Below, one piece after another: positions 41,748 through 51,327 of a DNA stretch of 64,000 nucleotides. Source of the stretch: Kiritimatiellia bacterium. GTDB lineage: Bacteria; Verrucomicrobiota; Kiritimatiellia; PWTM01. Where the stretch lies: assembly GCA_026417735.1 (NCBI GenBank), contig JAOACR010000020.1, forward strand, positions 62,001-126,000, given 5' to 3'. Numbering within the stretch: position 1 is the stretch's first letter; each line of letters opens with the position of its first letter. The translations under genes and the position numbers were made by a program. Under the pieces are notes generated by a model. It was not told the origin of the DNA and searched no databases. It saw nothing but the letters and a program-made list of their open reading frames with translations.

Positions 41748-41857
41748 TCCGGTGCGTCAACTGAGTTCCGCCGCCCGGCGCCACCGCCTCGCGGTTCGCT
41801 CCGCCCGCGTACTTGCCGCCGGAGGGGCACCGCGTTAGGTTGGCGAAGGTTCGACCG

Positions 41858-44800
41858 ATGACGCCGACGGGTCAGCGTGCGGGCATCTGCAACGGCGGCG
41901 CGCCGTCACCGACCGCCGGCGATCTGCGGCTGCCCCGCTCGTTCCACTGGCTGAACGCGACACAGTTTCTTGGCGCGCTGAACGACAACCTCTTCAAGCT
42001 GCTGGTCACCTTCGCGGTGATCCGGCTGCTCGGCGAGTCCGCCAGCGAACTCGCGGCCGGTCTGGGTGGCCTGCTCTTTGCGCTTCCGTTCCTGCTCTTT
42101 ACGCCGGCCGCCGGCGTGCTCGCGGACCGGATCAGCAAGCGCAACATCCTTGTCGGCGCTAAGGCACTGGAAGTCGCCGTGATGCTGGCGGGCGCATTTG
42201 CGCTGGCGCAGCAGAGCGCGCCGATGCTGTTCGGCGTGCTGTTCCTGATGTCCGCGCAAAGCGCGCTGTTTGGTCCCGCAAAGTACGGCATCATCCCGGA
42301 AATCGCCGGCCGCGAGCGGCTGTCACGCGCGAACAGCCAGATCGTGATGGCCACCTACCTAGCAATCATCATCGGCACGTTCGTGGCGCCTGGTTCGGTA
42401 CGACTGCTCGGCAACCGCGTCGCGCCGGCCGGATGGATCTGCGTCGCGGTCGCAGTGGCGGGGCTGCTGACCTCGTTCGGGATCGAGCCCACACCGGCGG
42501 CCGGCGTGCGGCGCCGGCCCTCCTGGCTGTTCTGGTCCGATGTGATCCGGCCGCTGCGGTCGGTTCGTGAAGACCGCTATCTGCTGCTGGCGATCGCCGG
42601 TCTCGCCTACTTCTCCATGGTGGGCGCATACCTGCAACTGAACTTGATTCCCTACGGAATCCGCCACCTCGGATGGAGCGAGGTGGACAGCGGTTTTCTC
42701 TTCGTTGGTGCCGCGGTCGGTATCGGGCTTGGCGCGGGCCTCGCGGGATGGTGGTCGGGCCGGAACGTCGAGTTCGGTGTGGTACCGCTCGGCGCGGCGT
42801 TGTTGGCCGCCAGCGCGATCGCGATCGGTACCACGGCCCGTCCCGCCGTCGCGGCGGTGTCTGCGGTAACCGCCGGCATTGGCGCCGGACTGTTCGTGGT
42901 GCCGCTGGAGGCCTTCGTGCAGATGCGTTGCCCGCGGGACCGGCTCGGCGGCGTGCTCGCCGCGAACAACTTCCTCAGCTGGATCGGCGTGCTCGCGGGT
43001 TCGGGCCTTCTGCTCGCGATGCACCGGTGGGCCGGCCTGCCGGTCGCGCGCGGTTTCCAGGCGGTCGGCGCACTGACGCTGCTGCTGACCGCGGTGACGC
43101 TGGCCGTGCTTCCGGATTTTCTTGCAAGGTTCGCCGCGGTGGTGGTCACTCGCACGGTCTATCGCGTGCGCGCACTGGGTCTGGAAAATCTGCCGATCGA
43201 GGGTGGCGCGCTGCTGGTCGCAAATCACGTCAGTTATCTCGACGCGCTCCACATGCTGGCCTGTCAGCAGCGCCGCATCCGCTTTCTGATGCATCGTCCG
43301 ATCTACGAGCAGCATCCGCTGCGGCCGATCTTCCGGCTGATGGGCTGCATTCCGATCGCGCCCGACGACCCGCCGCGCCGTCTCGTCGCCGCGTTGCGGG
43401 AAGCACGGGAGGCGCTGGACCGCGGTTTCCTTGTCTGCGTGTTCGCCGAAGGGGCACTGACGCGGTCCGGCTTCATGACCGCATTCCGTCCCGGCTTTGA
43501 ACGCATCGTGCGAGGCAGTCAGCACCCGGTGATTCCAGTGTATCTCGGCGGCACGTGGGGTAGCGTGTTCAGCCGCTACCGACCGCGCGACCATGCGCGG
43601 GTGCCGGTGCGCTTCCCTCGCCAGGTCACCGTCGTGTTCGGTCGGCCGATGTCCCCCGACTCCACCGCCGCAGAAGTTCGCGCGGCGGTGCAGGAGCTGT
43701 CGGTCGTGTATTTCAACGACCTCAAACCGCGCCGCCGACCACTCGGTCACGCATGGGTTCGCGCGGCTCGGCGCAACTGGCGACGCATAGTGATGACGGA
43801 CACGCTCGGCCGGCGATTGACCGGCGGCCGCGCGCTGATCGCCAGCATCGCGCTCGCGCGCCAGCTTGCTCCGCGGGTTCGCGGCCATCCGGCGGTCGGC
43901 GTGCTGCTGCCTCCCAGTGTCGGGGGCGCCCTCGCAAACTTGGCGCTGGCGCTGCTGCGAGTGCCGTCGGTCAACCTCAACTTCACGGTCTCGGCCGAGG
44001 CGTTCCGCTCCGCGATCCGTCAGGCCGGCGTGCGCACTGTGGTGACATCGCGCGCCTTTCTGGAAAAAATCCGGCTGCCGGCTGAGCTGCCCGGACCCGC
44101 GTACCTTGAGGATCTGCTGGCGGAGCTCACGCCACTGCGCCGGCTGGCAGCTGCCGCGCTCGCGCTGGCCGCCCCAGCCGTCTGGCTGGGCCGGGCGCGA
44201 AAGTTCGAGGCGGACACTCCGGCCACCATCATCTTTTCCTCCGGCACCACCGGCGAGCCGAAAGGCGTCGTGTTGAGCCACCACAACCTCCTGTCGAACG
44301 TGGAGGGCCTGATGCTCGCGTTCCGCGCGCGGCGCGACGAGGCGCTCGCCGCGACGCTGCCCCTGTTCCACTCGTTCGGGTATACCTGCGGCGTGTGGTT
44401 TCCGCTGCTGGCGGGCATCACCGCGCACTACCATCCCAACCCGCTCGACTCGGCGCGCATCGCGCAGATGATTCGCGAGGAACGCTGCACGGCGCTCTTC
44501 GCGACGCCCACGTTCCTGCTGGGGTACCTGCGCCGCGCCCAGCCGGAGGATCTGCGCACCCTCCGCTGGCTCATCACCGGCGCCGAAAAACTGCGGGCCC
44601 ACGTCGCCGACGCCTTCGAACAGCGCTTCGGCATCCGGCCGCTCGAAGGCTACGGCACCACTGAGCTGTCGCCAGTCGTCGCACTGAGCGTCCCGCACGT
44701 GAGGGACGGGGATCTGGTGGAAACCGGTTGGAAGAGCGGCAGCGTCGGTCGGCCGATCCCCGGGGTCGCGCTGCGCATTGTCGACCCCACCACCGGTGCA

Positions 44801-45334
44801 CCGCTGCCGCCGGGCGAGACCGGCCTGCTGCTGGTTCGCGGCCCGAACGTCATGACCGGCTACCTCGGCCGGCCCGATCTCACCGCGGAAGTATTGCGCG
44901 ACGGCTGGTACGTGACCGGGGACATCGCCTCCCTCGACGAGGACGGATTCCTGTACATCGTGGACCGCCTTGCCCGCTTCAGCAAAATCGGCGGCGAGAT
45001 GGTCCCGCACATGGTGGTCGAAGAAGCGCTCCAGCGCGCGTTAGGGGAACCGGCCGAGATCGCAGTGGCAGTGACCGCGGTGCCGGACGAACGCCGGGGG
45101 GAGCGCCTGGTGGTGCTCTACACCGATGCGGCCGGCGATCCAAGCCGGCTGCATGCCAGCCTCGAAGCCGCGAATCTTCCCAATCTCTGGAAGCCCGCAT
45201 TGACCGACTACCTGCGGGTCGAGCGGATCCCGGTCACAGCGACCGGCAAGCTCGACGTCCGACAGCTGCGCCGGCTCGCGGAGAAGTTGGCGACGAGCGA
45301 GGCGTCACGCCCTATCAGCGGTCTTGGCGCCTGA
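41858..45334 (+). CDS. LplT-acyltransferase-acyl-ACP/AMP ligase fusion (Aas-like)
   Basis: The 1158-residue protein combines three units. About 1-415 is an MFS lysophospholipid transporter-like domain (FHWLNATQFLGALNDNLFKL then LVTFA, and LISKRNILV-like DRISKRNILVGAK). About 430-620 is a PlsC-type acyltransferase with ANHVSYLDALHML (H-x4-D), FAEGALTRSG and RGSQHPVIPVYLGGTWGS. About 640-1150 is an adenylate-forming ligase with TIIFSSGTTGEPKGVVLSHH, EGYGTTELSPVVALS, RGPNVMTGYLG and YVTGDIASLDEDGFLYIVDR. It would import lysophospholipids and reacylate them using fatty acids in one polypeptide. The ATG at 41858 has GAAGG; an upstream TTG exists. Confidence 0.92.
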   Translation: MTPTGQRAGICNGGAPSPTAGDLRLPRSFHWLNATQFLGALNDNLFKLLVTFAVIRLLGESASELAAGLGGLLFALPFLLFTPAAGVLADRISKRNILVGAKALEVAVMLAGAFALAQQSAPMLFGVLFLMSAQSALFGPAKYGIIPEIAGRERLSRANSQIVMATYLAIIIGTFVAPGSVRLLGNRVAPAGWICVAVAVAGLLTSFGIEPTPAAGVRRRPSWLFWSDVIRPLRSVREDRYLLLAIAGLAYFSMVGAYLQLNLIPYGIRHLGWSEVDSGFLFVGAAVGIGLGAGLAGWWSGRNVEFGVVPLGAALLAASAIAIGTTARPAVAAVSAVTAGIGAGLFVVPLEAFVQMRCPRDRLGGVLAANNFLSWIGVLAGSGLLLAMHRWAGLPVARGFQAVGALTLLLTAVTLAVLPDFLARFAAVVVTRTVYRVRALGLENLPIEGGALLVANHVSYLDALHMLACQQRRIRFLMHRPIYEQHPLRPIFRLMGCIPIAPDDPPRRLVAALREAREALDRGFLVCVFAEGALTRSGFMTAFRPGFERIVRGSQHPVIPVYLGGTWGSVFSRYRPRDHARVPVRFPRQVTVVFGRPMSPDSTAAEVRAAVQELSVVYFNDLKPRRRPLGHAWVRAARRNWRRIVMTDTLGRRLTGGRALIASIALARQLAPRVRGHPAVGVLLPPSVGGALANLALALLRVPSVNLNFTVSAEAFRSAIRQAGVRTVVTSRAFLEKIRLPAELPGPAYLEDLLAELTPLRRLAAAALALAAPAVWLGRARKFEADTPATIIFSSGTTGEPKGVVLSHHNLLSNVEGLMLAFRARRDEALAATLPLFHSFGYTCGVWFPLLAGITAHYHPNPLDSARIAQMIREERCTALFATPTFLLGYLRRAQPEDLRTLRWLITGAEKLRAHVADAFEQRFGIRPLEGYGTTELSPVVALSVPHVRDGDLVETGWKSGSVGRPIPGVALRIVDPTTGAPLPPGETGLLLVRGPNVMTGYLGRPDLTAEVLRDGWYVTGDIASLDEDGFLYIVDRLARFSKIGGEMVPHMVVEEALQRALGEPAEIAVAVTAVPDERRGERLVVLYTDAAGDPSRLHASLEAANLPNLWKPALTDYLRVERIPVTATGKLDVRQLRRLAEKLATSEASRPISGLGA

Positions 45335-45394: not shown

Positions 45395-45958
45395 ATGAAA
45401 CGTCTGGCACTCTGGATCGCCCGCAGCGCAACAGTCGGAGCGCTGCAAGCGTGTGCAGCGGACGCCCTCCCACCGCGCGAGTTCGAAGTGAAGCTCGACG
45501 GCGAACCGGTCTCCGGCAAACAGGTGGTCACGGTGCGGTTCACCCCCATGCAAAGTCGCACCTACGACATGCTGACCTTCGAGTGCGTGCTGCGCCAGGA
45601 GTACATGCAGACCGACTCGGCGGGGCGCACCCGCCGGCGGGTGGTCGAGCCGGCCGTCTTCACTCACCGCGAACGGGGGGTCAAGTTCGTCGAGGCGCTC
45701 GACAAACACATCAGTTTCTGGGTGCCCATTTCAGTCGAAAGACTCCGAGAAGCTTTCGGAGAAACCCTGTTTGTGGCCAGCGCGCCCGTCACCATCCACA
45801 AGGTCGTGATCCGCGCATACCATAACGGCGACGTCGTGTGGACCGTCGAGAGTCCACCCGGTGCCGGCCCGAAGACCGCCCCGGCAGACGCAGCCGGCAG
45901 CGGTCCGAAGCGCGATAAGTACGGCCTGCCGGAGTTCCGGGGAGGCCGGCGGCCATGA
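45395..45958 (+). CDS. Secreted hypothetical protein
   Basis: The 187-residue protein has a signal peptide (MKRLALWIARSATVGALQAC, possibly a lipobox-like C near ADALP) behind AAGGGAATTGCC. The body is a beta-rich domain without recognised motifs: FEVKLDGEPVSGKQVVTVRF, ISFWVPISVERLREAF, VVIRAYHNGDVVWTVESPPG. It ends in a Gly/Pro-rich tail. Its stop overlaps the following gene (ATGATG), so it forms the first gene of a three-gene envelope operon with the PEGA and porin genes. No family is recognised. Confidence 0.72.
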   Translation: MKRLALWIARSATVGALQACAADALPPREFEVKLDGEPVSGKQVVTVRFTPMQSRTYDMLTFECVLRQEYMQTDSAGRTRRRVVEPAVFTHRERGVKFVEALDKHISFWVPISVERLREAFGETLFVASAPVTIHKVVIRAYHNGDVVWTVESPPGAGPKTAPADAAGSGPKRDKYGLPEFRGGRRP

Positions 45959-47568
45959 TGCGCGCAGTCGCGATCTGGCTGGGGCTGGTCATTGCCGCCT
46001 ACGGCGCAACAAGCGTGGACCAAGCGCTATACGGCCCGGAGATGATGGCACTGCGAGCAGCCATCTCGAACGAGCTCGCGGCCGCGGAGTCGCGCACGCG
46101 TGAAGGGCGGGCCCAGGTGCTTCGACAGGCGCTTGCGGACTGGGAGACTGAGCTGGCGGAACGCAGACGCACCCGGAACATCCGCGGCATTGCCGTCGCG
46201 GAGGACGCTCGTATGGCACTGCAACGAATGCTCGAGGAACTCGAGAAGACCGGGCGCGTCGAATGGCCCTCTTCGCTGCGCCGCGAGCTCACTGAGCCGT
46301 TCCAGCGCCTCCGCGACCGTATGGAAGGGGCAGAGCGGACCGGGGCCGACCTCGTGGCGGCAGCGGAGCGAGCAGCGCTGGAACGGTTCCGAACGGCGGC
46401 GTCGCGGGTCGGCGTCTCGCTCCCACAGGAGCCGGACGCGCTCCGCGCGCGCTTTCACGCATGGCTGCGCGAGCCGCCGCCCTCTCCTCCAGCCGCAGCG
46501 CCCGGAACTGCGCCGGTCGCCCGCTCCGAGGCCGAGCCGCCAATCGCCGCGGCTCCGAGACGGACCGAGCCACCAGAGTTCTTCGCGCAATCCCGTCCGG
46601 GCGCCGACTGGATCGATGTGGGGATCTGGCGAGCAGAGTCGCGGGGCCCCGATGTCTATGAAATCACGGTCTTTGGCCCGGCAGGTGAGCGACGGGGCGA
46701 AAAGAGCAATCCCGTTCTGGGCCGTACGACTGCGTGGTCGTGGCGCCAAAATCGCGAGGTGATGCCCGGCGCTTATTCTTGGCGGCTGCGCCGCCTGGGT
46801 ACGGCGGACGTGGTCGACGTCATCGAATGGCCCTCGCCGTCGAACGACGGCCGGCTCATCTTCCGCACGCGCATGCCCTCCCGCTTGCCCGCAGAGACCG
46901 CGTTCGAGGTCCAGTACTCCACCTCCAGGCTCGTCTCAGTCGACATCCGAACCGACCCTCCTGGCGCACTGATCGAAATCAACGGTCAACCTCACCGCGA
47001 AGGACTTCGGGAAGTGCGTACGCCCGCCACGGTCCATGTGGTGCCCGGTACCATTTCCATGAAGCTGTCGCTGGACGGCTACCAGGACGCCGTCGCACCG
47101 GCGCTGCGCGTGGACTCAAACCGAACGATCACGGTAAAACTCGCTCCGCTGAAGGACCTGCCCGGCCGTACGGTCACCGTGGATGCGCAAAGCGTCTGGA
47201 CGGATTCCGGCATCGCGGTGCGCCGTGGCGACCGTGTCCGTCTTTCCATTGAAGGCGAATGGAGCTGCGGAGCACGGGGCGAGATGACCGGTCCGCAAGG
47301 GTACGATCCGCGCGATCTGCGCTTCAGCCACTATTACCTTGCCGGCTCGGGCGCCCCCAAACAGTTGGAGTCGGCACCCTATGGCGCACTGCTGGTGCGG
47401 ATTGGAACGAACAGCCCGATGGCGGTCGCCGGCAGTCGGGGGTTCGTCGCATCCGCCGAAGGCCCCCTGCTCTTCGACATCAACGAGTCGACCGACCCTT
47501 CGCACCGCCGCAACAACCGGGGTGCACTGAAGCTGAAGATCAGCGTGCAGCCCGGCGGCGCCCCGTGA
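45955..47568 (+). CDS. Secreted protein with coiled coil, PEGA domain and PA-IL (LecA)-like C-terminal domain
   Basis: The 537-residue protein has a hydrophobic N-terminus (MRAVAIWLGLVIAAYGATSV) and a Glu/Arg-rich helical stretch of about 140 residues suggesting a coiled coil. A Pro/Ala-rich linker follows. A PEGA-like beta domain has VDIRTDPPGALIEINGQPHR and VVPGTISMKLSLDGYQDA at about 330-385. From about 405 to the end, VDAQSVWTDSGIAVRRGDRV, YGALLVRIGTNSPMAVAGSR and GPLLFDINESTDPSHRRNNR follow the PA-IL galactose-binding lectin-like fold pattern. An envelope sugar- or peptidoglycan-related role is inferred. It overlaps both neighbours. Confidence 0.75.
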   Translation: MMRAVAIWLGLVIAAYGATSVDQALYGPEMMALRAAISNELAAAESRTREGRAQVLRQALADWETELAERRRTRNIRGIAVAEDARMALQRMLEELEKTGRVEWPSSLRRELTEPFQRLRDRMEGAERTGADLVAAAERAALERFRTAASRVGVSLPQEPDALRARFHAWLREPPPSPPAAAPGTAPVARSEAEPPIAAAPRRTEPPEFFAQSRPGADWIDVGIWRAESRGPDVYEITVFGPAGERRGEKSNPVLGRTTAWSWRQNREVMPGAYSWRLRRLGTADVVDVIEWPSPSNDGRLIFRTRMPSRLPAETAFEVQYSTSRLVSVDIRTDPPGALIEINGQPHREGLREVRTPATVHVVPGTISMKLSLDGYQDAVAPALRVDSNRTITVKLAPLKDLPGRTVTVDAQSVWTDSGIAVRRGDRVRLSIEGEWSCGARGEMTGPQGYDPRDLRFSHYYLAGSGAPKQLESAPYGALLVRIGTNSPMAVAGSRGFVASAEGPLLFDINESTDPSHRRNNRGALKLKISVQPGGAP

Positions 47569-48656
47569 GCCGCGCGCCCCCCCTCGCGTTGCGGATTGCG
47601 GCTCTGGCACTCCCATGGTGGGCCACAGCCGATGCACGGTCTGCGACACCGTGGCGCTTGAGCGGCGATTCGCGGTTACGGATGGAGTGGCGCGAAACGA
47701 AGGTCGGAGATTCCACGGTTCGATGGCGGCTCCGACTTCGAGAAGAGTTCCAGCTCGAAACCGAGGAGGGCTGGACGCTCGCGCTCGGACTGGCCACCGG
47801 CCGGCGGGGCGATCCCCGCGATCCAGACTGGCTCTTCGGCGACCGCGATGGGCAACTGCTGATCCGTCCCTCTCCCGCCTGGGTTCGATGGCGTCCGCAA
47901 CGCCGAGATATGCCCTCGCTCACCGCAGGGCGTATGCCGATGCCGCTGCTGAGGGTGAACGATCTGATTTTCGACGGAGACTGGCACCCCCTCGGCGCGT
48001 CCCTTGAGAGTCAGCTCGGTGAAGCGACGAGTCTCTTACGGTCGCACGCCGGCACGTTTTGGCTGGCGGATATGGGCGCGCCGTCGTGGAGGTTGCACAC
48101 CGGACAAATCGCGTGGGACCGCGCACCATCGCGCGACTGGCGCACACTGGTCGGCGCCTCGGTGGTTTGGCATGTGGACGCGGAGGAGCGCTCTCCGCCC
48201 ATCGCTCCGCCGCACGCGGTCGGGAACACCCTCCGCTCCGACCTGCCTGGCGATCCCTCGCGCTTGGCAACAGACTTTCACCTGATCGAGGGCTTTGCGT
48301 TGGTCACATGGGATCCATGGTTGCCGGTTTCGATGTGCGCGCAGGGGGTGGTGAACACCGCCGCATCGGCCGAGCGAACGGGTTGGCTCATTGGAGTCTC
48401 CGCGGGTGCCGCGCGGGCGGTCCGCGGCGTTGAGGCGGGATGGTCCTACAGGGAGCTGCGCGCCGACGCGGTGCCGGCGAGCCTCGCGGACTCGGACTTC
48501 GGCGGCACCGCTCTGCACGCGCACCGCATTCACATTCGATGGCAGCCCCTCAGAAATTTGTGGTTGACGCTGGCCTGGCGGTCCACCCGTCCCCTCTCAA
48601 GTCGCGGCCCACCGCCAACCGAGCTCTGGCAGGCCGACCTGCTTCTCCGATTTTGA
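47565..48656 (+). CDS. Putative outer-membrane porin
   Basis: The 363-residue protein starts with GTG overlapping the PEGA-gene stop. It has a signal peptide (SRAPPLALRIAALALPWWAT) and beta-strand-rich repeats ending in aromatic residues: WRLSGDSRLRMEWRETKVGD, VRWRLRLREEFQLETEEG, LPSLTAGRMP-like PSLTAGRMPMPLL, NDLIFDGDWHPLGASLESQL, FHLIEGFALVTWDPWLPVSM. It ends in a terminal ELWQADLLLRF whose last Phe is typical of outer-membrane beta barrels. This resembles the putative-porin group found in Lentisphaera/Kiritimatiella-like genomes. The neighbouring PEGA protein may bind it. Confidence 0.72.
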   Translation: MSRAPPLALRIAALALPWWATADARSATPWRLSGDSRLRMEWRETKVGDSTVRWRLRLREEFQLETEEGWTLALGLATGRRGDPRDPDWLFGDRDGQLLIRPSPAWVRWRPQRRDMPSLTAGRMPMPLLRVNDLIFDGDWHPLGASLESQLGEATSLLRSHAGTFWLADMGAPSWRLHTGQIAWDRAPSRDWRTLVGASVVWHVDAEERSPPIAPPHAVGNTLRSDLPGDPSRLATDFHLIEGFALVTWDPWLPVSMCAQGVVNTAASAERTGWLIGVSAGAARAVRGVEAGWSYRELRADAVPASLADSDFGGTALHAHRIHIRWQPLRNLWLTLAWRSTRPLSSRGPPPTELWQADLLLRF

Positions 48657-49329: not shown

Positions 49330-51327
49330 TCACGGCTCCCTTTTCCCGTCGGCACCGCCGCCCACCGCCGACCCCCACGGCGTCGTCAGTGGTGCGGCTT
49401 CGCCCGACCGCGGGGGATAAGCGACCAGTAGTGGTACCATGGCCCCTTGGCCGCGGCCATAGGCCTGCCCCTTCAGCATCCGCCGTTCCTCGCCATTCCG
49501 GCGCTCCACCAGAATATCGAACGGAGCGTTTCGGCGAGTGACCCATTCGCCGACCGTCGCGGAAAGCCGTCCTCCACTTTCGACGATAAACATCTGCTTC
49601 GGCGAGATGTCCGCCTTGTTTGCATAGATCAAGCCACCGAGGATTTCGAGGCTGCCACCGTTGCGCACCCGCCCGATTGTGGGGTCGTTTTCTGTTTTCA
49701 GCCCCAAGATCCACAGTGTGCCGCCGTCCACGTCCAGCCGCGGTTCCTCCCAGCCCTCGGGGTTGACCTGGCGACCAAAGACGCGCGTTCCGGCAGCAAC
49801 CTTGATGCTCTTCGCCCGCACGTCGTGCAGAAAGGTGTCGCCTGCGCCTGGATAGGTTTCGACCTCATAAAACGACATGTGACGAATCACCAACCGGCGC
49901 GCTGATCGCTGCTCGAAACGCGGCGCGGTGTACCACGAGTTGAATCGCTCGATCACAACGACGGGGGCCGCGCCGTCTTCCATGATGAACAGAGGCACTG
50001 AAGTCTCTTCCTGAAACATCGTGCGCTGATTGTTGTGCGCGACGACTGCACCCAAATTCGCCTCGCAGCCGATGAGGCGCCGGAGGTTGCCGCGCAGCCG
50101 GATGGTGCCGTGGACCGCATAGTCAGCCAGACCAGGCTTGTGCGGAAAATAGATGGTGGTCGCCCCCGAATCGATCGCCCGCTGCAGCGCGGGTGCCCAG
50201 TTCTCGCGTTCAAACTTCTTCCCGTCCCCAACGCGTCTGAACGTAACTTTCTCAGGGGGGCCAAAGTCGGTGACGCTGACCCAGCGATCTGCTGGGTCCC
50301 ACGGAACATCGGGGGTCTCCTCGGCCGGCAGCCGCAGCGAACGCGCAGGCGAGGGAAACAGCGAGAGCGGCTCATGCGTGACGAACTCCTCCACGCTGTC
50401 CTTCGCCACACCGCGGCCGTGGCCACTGGCGTTATCGAGAAGTCGTTCATAACCAGGCGCGCGCACATCTCGCAAAAACATCGCGGCGAACTGCTCGTTG
50501 ATGAGCGCCGCCCCTCTCGTGCCGGGCAAACCCACAAGCTCGCTTTCGATCAGCGTCACTAGACCCGGGCCGCTCAAGTTCACAATCGCAGGTACGGCGT
50601 TCCGGCTTGTGAGTCTCCGAAAGCTAATGATCTGACCCGCGTTACGAATACCGGCCACCCGCTGCCCTTCCAACCGAATGTGCTCAAAGGTGACACTGTC
50701 CACCGGATGCTGCGTGAAGATGCCGACATCGAAGCCACGGATGGTCACGTGTTCGATAAGGCACGGCCCCTGTTCGTTGGTATACCCGAGATCGAGGCCG
50801 ATGACGCCGCGTCCTTCCGGATCGCCGGAGCGGATTGTGACGCGGTGCATCCCGCCCTGGTTGTTCGCAATGAAACGCACGCCGATGGCACCGGGGTTGC
50901 CGCGGCCCGTGTCGAGAGTGAGATTACGCAGACCGTTGCGAAAGCGCTGAGCCGGCGCCTTCCCCGTCCAGATCATGGACTGCGGATTGTTGGGATCTCG
51001 GAATCCAGGGCAGTTGTCAGCCAGTTGGAGAATAGTGCCCTCTTCGCTTTGGCCCTGAAGCACCTGCCGTTTTTTTCCGCGGCCCCAAACAAGCATCTGC
51101 GAAATGATGTAGCGTCCGTTGGGGACATAGATGAGATGGTTTTCCGGCTCCTCCCGCAGCGCCCGTTGGAAAGCCTCCGTGTCATCCGTGACACCGTCGC
51201 CCTTCGCACCGTAATCGCGCACGTTGGCCACTCTCGCACCCGGCGGAAAAACGATTTCCTCGGAACGCGGAGAGTCAGCCAGCGCTACCCACAACGCTAC
51301 GGCGAAACCTAACATGAACCTCCGCAT
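49330..51327 (-). CDS. Secreted parallel beta-helix protein, pectate lyase 3-like
   Basis: The 665-residue protein has a signal peptide (MRRFMLGFAVALWVALADSP) behind GGGAGAATAAAC. It has the pectate-lyase-3 opening VANVRDYGAKGDGVTDDTEA with FQRALREEPENHLIYVPNGR (about 25-85). Further beta-helix coils follow (IGVRFIANNQGGMHRVTIRS, IEHVTIRGFDVGIFTQHPVD). A second half opens with VSVTDFGPPEKVTFRRVGDG and ALQRAIDSGATTIYFPHKPG, that is, a repeat of the same start motif. The domain duplication with two DYG/DFG starts resembles exo-1,3-glucanase and tailspike-like enzymes. Substrate unknown. Confidence 0.83.
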   Translation of the reverse strand: MRRFMLGFAVALWVALADSPRSEEIVFPPGARVANVRDYGAKGDGVTDDTEAFQRALREEPENHLIYVPNGRYIISQMLVWGRGKKRQVLQGQSEEGTILQLADNCPGFRDPNNPQSMIWTGKAPAQRFRNGLRNLTLDTGRGNPGAIGVRFIANNQGGMHRVTIRSGDPEGRGVIGLDLGYTNEQGPCLIEHVTIRGFDVGIFTQHPVDSVTFEHIRLEGQRVAGIRNAGQIISFRRLTSRNAVPAIVNLSGPGLVTLIESELVGLPGTRGAALINEQFAAMFLRDVRAPGYERLLDNASGHGRGVAKDSVEEFVTHEPLSLFPSPARSLRLPAEETPDVPWDPADRWVSVTDFGPPEKVTFRRVGDGKKFERENWAPALQRAIDSGATTIYFPHKPGLADYAVHGTIRLRGNLRRLIGCEANLGAVVAHNNQRTMFQEETSVPLFIMEDGAAPVVVIERFNSWYTAPRFEQRSARRLVIRHMSFYEVETYPGAGDTFLHDVRAKSIKVAAGTRVFGRQVNPEGWEEPRLDVDGGTLWILGLKTENDPTIGRVRNGGSLEILGGLIYANKADISPKQMFIVESGGRLSATVGEWVTRRNAPFDILVERRNGEERRMLKGQAYGRGQGAMVPLLVAYPPRSGEAAPLTTPWGSAVGGGADGKREP

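Follow-up and report, generated by a model that had tools for sequence, protein, structure and literature searches.

The locus raises the question of which partner is served by two linked genes for predicted envelope proteins that lie immediately before a porin gene. The window (the whole stretch of DNA analysed, 64,000 nucleotides from a Kiritimatiellia bacterium) carries, on the forward strand, gene A (45395..45958, an ATG-initiated frame of 187 aa), gene B (45955..47568, 537 aa) and gene C (47565..48656, 363 aa from a GTG start). The original prediction had described three envelope genes overlapping at both junctions and, indeed, four-base overlaps were found, ATGA between A and B and GTGA between B and C. 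Since the products are conserved in their nearest same-genus relatives (82%, 69% and 59% identity for A, B and C, respectively), the three frames can be taken as real genes. In this genus A-B and the porin gene are probably co-transcribed. Upstream of A, a gene at 41855-45334 encodes MFS, acyltransferase and AMP-binding domains and is presumably of the lysophospholipid-recycling type; A-B stands behind it in the window's genome (G000) and in G001 and G002, and in G003 the contig starts too near A-B to tell. On the 3' side of the porin gene, the minus strand encodes a pectate-lyase-like (PF12708) protein (49330-51327).

The key information about the partner of A and B came from the comparison of genomes. 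A search of the genome contigs with B alone retrieved no relative, and a search with a five-row alignment retrieved four. Of 58 relatives, 13 carry B, 14 carry A and 30 have a member of the porin family. In distant genomes, A and B close an operon with the order TPR-TPR-ExbB-ExbD-ExbD-vWA-A-B, whose other members were identified with Pfam as TPR, TPR-like, MotA_ExbB, ExbD and ExbD proteins, plus a VWA-like protein scoring below the Pfam cut-off. The helix that anchors this vWA protein contains an S-x3-H motif in 14 of 16 sequences, and its MIDAS-like DxSxS, T and D residues are kept. Across the class (288 genomes), A was found in 22 genomes, a vWA homolog at E<1e-100 in 32 and B at E<=1e-60 in 20, with many further genomes matching only the PEGA part of B. 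All 22 genomes carrying A fall within the 32 carrying vWA; the hypergeometric probability of this overlap by chance is 1.3e-25 counted by genome and 4.0e-16 by genus, figures that ignore kinship and should not be read literally. Two genomes with weaker vWA matches (~1e-78; G019 and G043) were left out of the 32, and both contain a weaker relative of the vWA operon (L115 and L116), with ExbB and two ExbD genes and without A or B. A sample of 387 genomes of the phylum contained 21 with A, four of them outside the class, and all four also encode vWA.

The linkage is physical in most cases. The vWA gene is directly followed by A in 20 of the 26 genomes with A (16/22 in the class and 4/4 outside it), and B was found in 23 of the 26, lying on a different contig from A in G055, where the contig breaks, and in G215. 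No clear B was detected in G039 or G182, and in G470 the contig ends after A. The order is different in G039 (L075), namely vWA, A, TPR, TPR, ExbB, ExbD and ExbD, and in G005 a second, different ExbB and ExbD pair (L066:972-2751) lies a few genes downstream of B. This co-occurrence and operon linkage with vWA across genomes make the motor the likely partner of A-B.

In the genus of the window, A-B is separated from the motor operon. The pair stands apart from the motor in G000-G003, G006 and G215, and each of these genomes has the vWA operon elsewhere. In the window's genome it is found on contig C9, without A or B, with the vWA gene at ~290,685-292,028 of the minus strand. This operon encodes a TPR protein, ExbB (96.6 bits), two ExbD proteins (100.9 and 68.5 bits) and a vWA protein for which the VWA models score 22.7 and 20.4 bits, short of their thresholds, and whose anchor helix contains the sequence SLGLH. 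The motor operon likewise lacks A-B in G001, G002, G003 and G006, the contig of G002 showing the last three motor genes only. Because in this genome the motor lies on C9, the partner of A-B could not be seen from the window, and the visible neighbor, the porin, was misleading; the likely true partner emerged only through genome comparison. The window's genome as a whole gives eight ExbD matches and three TonB-receptor Plug matches, the latter all on other contigs, pointing to further ExbBD motors and a small number of TonB-dependent receptors in addition to the vWA machine.

What kind of partner B might be is suggested by its architecture. The protein begins with a hydrophobic N-terminus, followed by a helical, coiled-coil-like region (residues ~25-172; 46027..46470), a Pro-rich linker, a beta domain (residues ~209-322; 46579..46920, defined from the model and the alignment), a PEGA domain (residues 327-396; 46933..47142) and a C-terminal PA-IL/LecA-like domain (residues 404-534; 47164..47556, placed by fold comparison and profile). 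The structural model, obtained from a five-row alignment (mean pLDDT 74.4), displays helices at 2-172, disorder at 179-205 and then beta structure at 209-322, PEGA at 327-395 and C-terminal beta structure at 405-532; the mutual placement of these domains is not fixed by the model because its pTM is low (0.34). Within the beta domain, W292-P293 is invariant in all 13 aligned orthologs. The Pfam PEGA model (PF08308) matches residues 328-396 with 29.4 bits against a curated cut-off of 20.8, and the domain has a transthyretin-like fold, superposing on 5aq0 with a Z of 8.7 (VIA-align). The B orthologs of G007 and G020 are missing PEGA and retain the PA-IL-like domain. The NCBIfam search gave nothing credible, and searching the PDB by sequence with B alone gave chance matches only. 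The proposal that B joins a coiled coil, a PEGA domain and a PA-IL-like C-terminus thus holds, on the strength of the modelled helices, the PEGA score and the PA-IL fold match (Z 11.2). B thus combines known domains in a new way; no literature report of PA-IL combined with PEGA was found, and among the articles listed on PEGA domains and lectins in the outer membrane none was relevant as judged by its title and the opening of its abstract.

The C-terminal domain of B has the PA-IL jelly-roll fold, as judged from its model, with independent support from sequence and fold. Residues 404-534 superpose on PA-IL (1l7l) with that same Z, an rmsd of 2.7 and 20% identity over 104 residues, and the domain compares with PllA at Z 9.9 and with EclA at Z 8.3 (all VIA-align). 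Foldseek gave a probability of 1.00 and a TMt of ~0.6 for PA-IL, with E-values of only 0.008-0.03. A profile made of 19 orthologous domains retrieved LecA from the PDB (E 0.005) in the matching register, and the Pfam PA-IL model (PF07828) matched three of the 19, the best at 7.8e-7, with no match to the window's own domain. Small proteins with a distant PA-IL-like domain (open frames of 211-261 aa; L195, L196, L197, L198 and L201) were also noticed in five genomes without an A-B pair (G009, G094, G028, G059 and G050).

The original prediction depended on this domain having the Ca2+ and sugar pocket of PA-IL, and here the outcome was divided: the side-chain ligands of Ca2+ are kept, with Glu in place of one Asp, but the galactose loop may have been rebuilt. 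The candidate Ca2+ site is formed by N510-E511 and N520-N521, followed by G523 (47482..47523), and this NE...[DN]NxG pattern is kept in 19/19 PA-IL-like domains. In EclA, a PA-IL relative, Ca2+ is bound by the side chains of Asp114, Asp121 and Asn122 and by two main-chain oxygens, according to PMC11875179. In the profile alignment, E511, N520 and N521 of B fall on the places of the LecA Ca2+ ligands. Over the 19 domains, the first position is always Glu, the second is Asp in 14 and Asn in five, and the third is always Asn. The exact 7/8 spacing of the EclA ligands occurs in three domains (L184, L185 and L189), and the others, including that of the window, have a two-residue insert. From this alignment a metal site in B is likely, the replacement of the LecA Asp by Glu being a conservative change. 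As for the sugar, the region where the galactose-contact loop is expected (residues 434-465) is poorly modelled, with a pLDDT below 50. EclA itself keeps the Ca2+ ligands but not the galactose residues, as described in the same article.

The family can do without the lectin part, because A is undetected in 10 of the 32 vWA genomes, where the motor hence occurs without it, and because a B-like protein can end before the lectin domain. In two of the vWA genomes without A (G010 and G221), the N-terminal half of B is present, in G221 with neither PEGA nor PA-IL domain; the B-like open frame of G221 (L222:6655-7668, 338 aa) stops before them and lies on a contig other than that of the vWA operon.

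Gene A encodes a secreted protein of 187 aa that is the constant companion of the vWA transducer. A Pfam search up to E 1 assigned it to no family. Its model suggests an all-beta sandwich; the resemblance to Ig/arrestin-like folds is weak, the best match having a Z of 8.0 and coming from a model with a pLDDT of 60.4. The window's protein has a Cys after LQA, and its assignment as a lipoprotein was rejected because this Cys is absent from the G001 ortholog; in the alignment, judged by eye, no N-terminal Cys is common to the A orthologs.

All these observations could be integrated by assuming that A and B act outside the cytoplasm as accessory components, namely periplasmic or outer-membrane clients, of the ExbB-ExbD-ExbD-vWA force transducer, a reading well supported by genomics to which we give a probability of roughly 0.7. 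Weighing against it are the vWA genomes in which A is undetected, the broken linkage in the window's own genus, the poor prediction of the galactose-contact region, the Glu in place of the LecA Asp and the two-residue insert between the ligands. A working model can be proposed around this reading. By homology, the proton motive force would power ExbB and ExbD in the inner membrane, where the vWA protein would be anchored by its TonB/TolA-like helix (with the S-x3-H motif) and from where its proline-rich arm would reach into the periplasm. The vWA head might then bind A, B or both, and B could span the periplasm by means of its helices and use its Ca2+-dependent PA-IL-like domain to hold a glycan of the envelope or the cell surface. 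The motor would pull on, or remodel, this attachment between B and the glycan, as Tol-Pal pulls on Pal. That B tethers the motor to an envelope glycan through its lectin-like domain is a tentative proposal, to which we give somewhat less than even odds.

A related reading, in which the vWA motor moves B as an adhesin for surface attachment or motility, appears unlikely, although it survives better than the other alternatives. B does end in a lectin-like fold, and PMC12204202 (Williams-Jones et al. 2025) raises the possibility that the vWA family acts in gliding. However, Pfam detects neither a sorting domain nor adhesin repeats in B, the A orthologs do not share an N-terminal Cys (by eye), and a periplasmic site is equally possible.

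Somewhat less likely still is that A and B are chaperone-like factors for envelope assembly, co-regulated with the vWA operon and with no force acting on them. The Ig/arrestin-like sandwich of the weak A model would suit such a role, as would the likely membrane-lipid function of the gene that precedes A in the window, G001 and G002; yet the constant pairing with one type of motor, both in the class and beyond it, is tighter than general co-regulation needs.

The third alternative, contained in the original prediction, is the one suggested by the porin. The product of gene C is a porin-like barrel of the Porin_5 family (PF16930, 46.6 bits against a cut-off of 22) and its last residue is Phe, so this part of the prediction was correct. 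The conservation of the three genes together, proposed as a test, was found within the genus (G000-G003, 4/4 species), but nowhere outside it: no porin of this family stands beside A-B in the mapped neighborhoods of other genera. In a tree of 20 porins, those of G000-G003 form a group (support 99/96) and the copy of G006 is its sister (99/98). This nearest porin outside the genus lies on another contig, although G006 also has an A-B pair, and in G004 a related porin is present without A, B or vWA. The porin is therefore a genus-restricted neighbor of A-B, since it follows B only in G000-G003 and the copy of G006 is elsewhere; judged from these sequences, it joined, or stayed with, A-B only in this genus and looks like a local addition. 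Consequently, the notion that sugars are captured by B, at the outer membrane or beyond it, and handed on to porin C, with A as a helper, is improbable and was dropped: the overlapping B-C junction, the adjacency in 4/4 genus members and the Ca2+ ligands of the PA-IL-like domain would agree with it, but the porin linkage is limited to the genus, Pfam finds no Plug or receptor domain in A, B or C, and the conserved partner of A-B is the ExbBD/vWA machine.

What the locus shares with SusC/SusD or TonB-dependent uptake is a barrel in the outer membrane close to a protein that may bind glycans, but C is a Porin_5 barrel without Plug that is not conserved with A-B. With PA-IL/LecA, PllA and EclA, B shares the fold and the pattern of Ca2+ side-chain ligands; it differs in that the domain shares one polypeptide with helices, a beta domain and PEGA, in the change from Asp to Glu and, with respect to LecA, in a longer loop region with a conserved HYY.

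Among the closest counterparts is the vWA family presented in PMC12204202 as a new class of force transducers with unknown function, encoded in a TPR-TolQ-TolR-TolR operon; in the literature searched on vWA proteins with such motors, this was the relevant article, some of the others being judged by title and the opening of the abstract. The argument that these vWA proteins are driven by the motor is built there, in section 8, on AF3 models and synteny, and the S-x3-H motif is described as present also in TonB and TolA. The C9 operon of the window's genome corresponds to this family in having a TPR protein, an ExbB/TolQ-like protein, two ExbD/TolR-like proteins and a TM-anchored vWA protein with the S-x3-H helix. 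The difference is that the present comparison adds A and B to it as constant partners, whereas section 8 names a TPR partner only; the main text of that article nowhere uses the words "PEGA", "lectin" or "porin", although its figures or supplements could include a drawn but unnamed neighbor. The transducers thus gain two specific, testable partners, one of them with a fold typical of Ca2+-dependent sugar-binding lectins. If this is right, the question of what the motor pulls on becomes experimentally addressable.

TolB_N (PF04052) had no match in the window's genome and a weak one in G003, of the same genus; 18 of the 288 class genomes match it. Its absence, considered as a mark of the vWA genomes, says little, as 270 of the 288 are without it. 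The Tol-Pal system (TolQ-TolR-TolA-TolB-Pal-CpoB) is composed of a proton-driven motor, a periplasm-spanning transducer, a TPR partner and periplasmic or outer-membrane effectors. By analogy, the machine considered here would have an equivalent of each, with envelope effectors downstream; it would differ in the head of its transducer, which is a vWA domain, and in its proposed glycan tether, which has a PA-IL fold and not that of OmpA/Pal. We therefore suggest, as a possibility that we hold at little better than one in three, an unrecognized Tol-Pal-like trans-envelope machine in lineages mostly without detectable TolB, in which a proton-driven ExbBD motor would act through a vWA head, anchored like TonB and standing in for TolA/TonB, and the role of Pal would fall to a Ca2+-dependent glycan tether of the PA-IL type.
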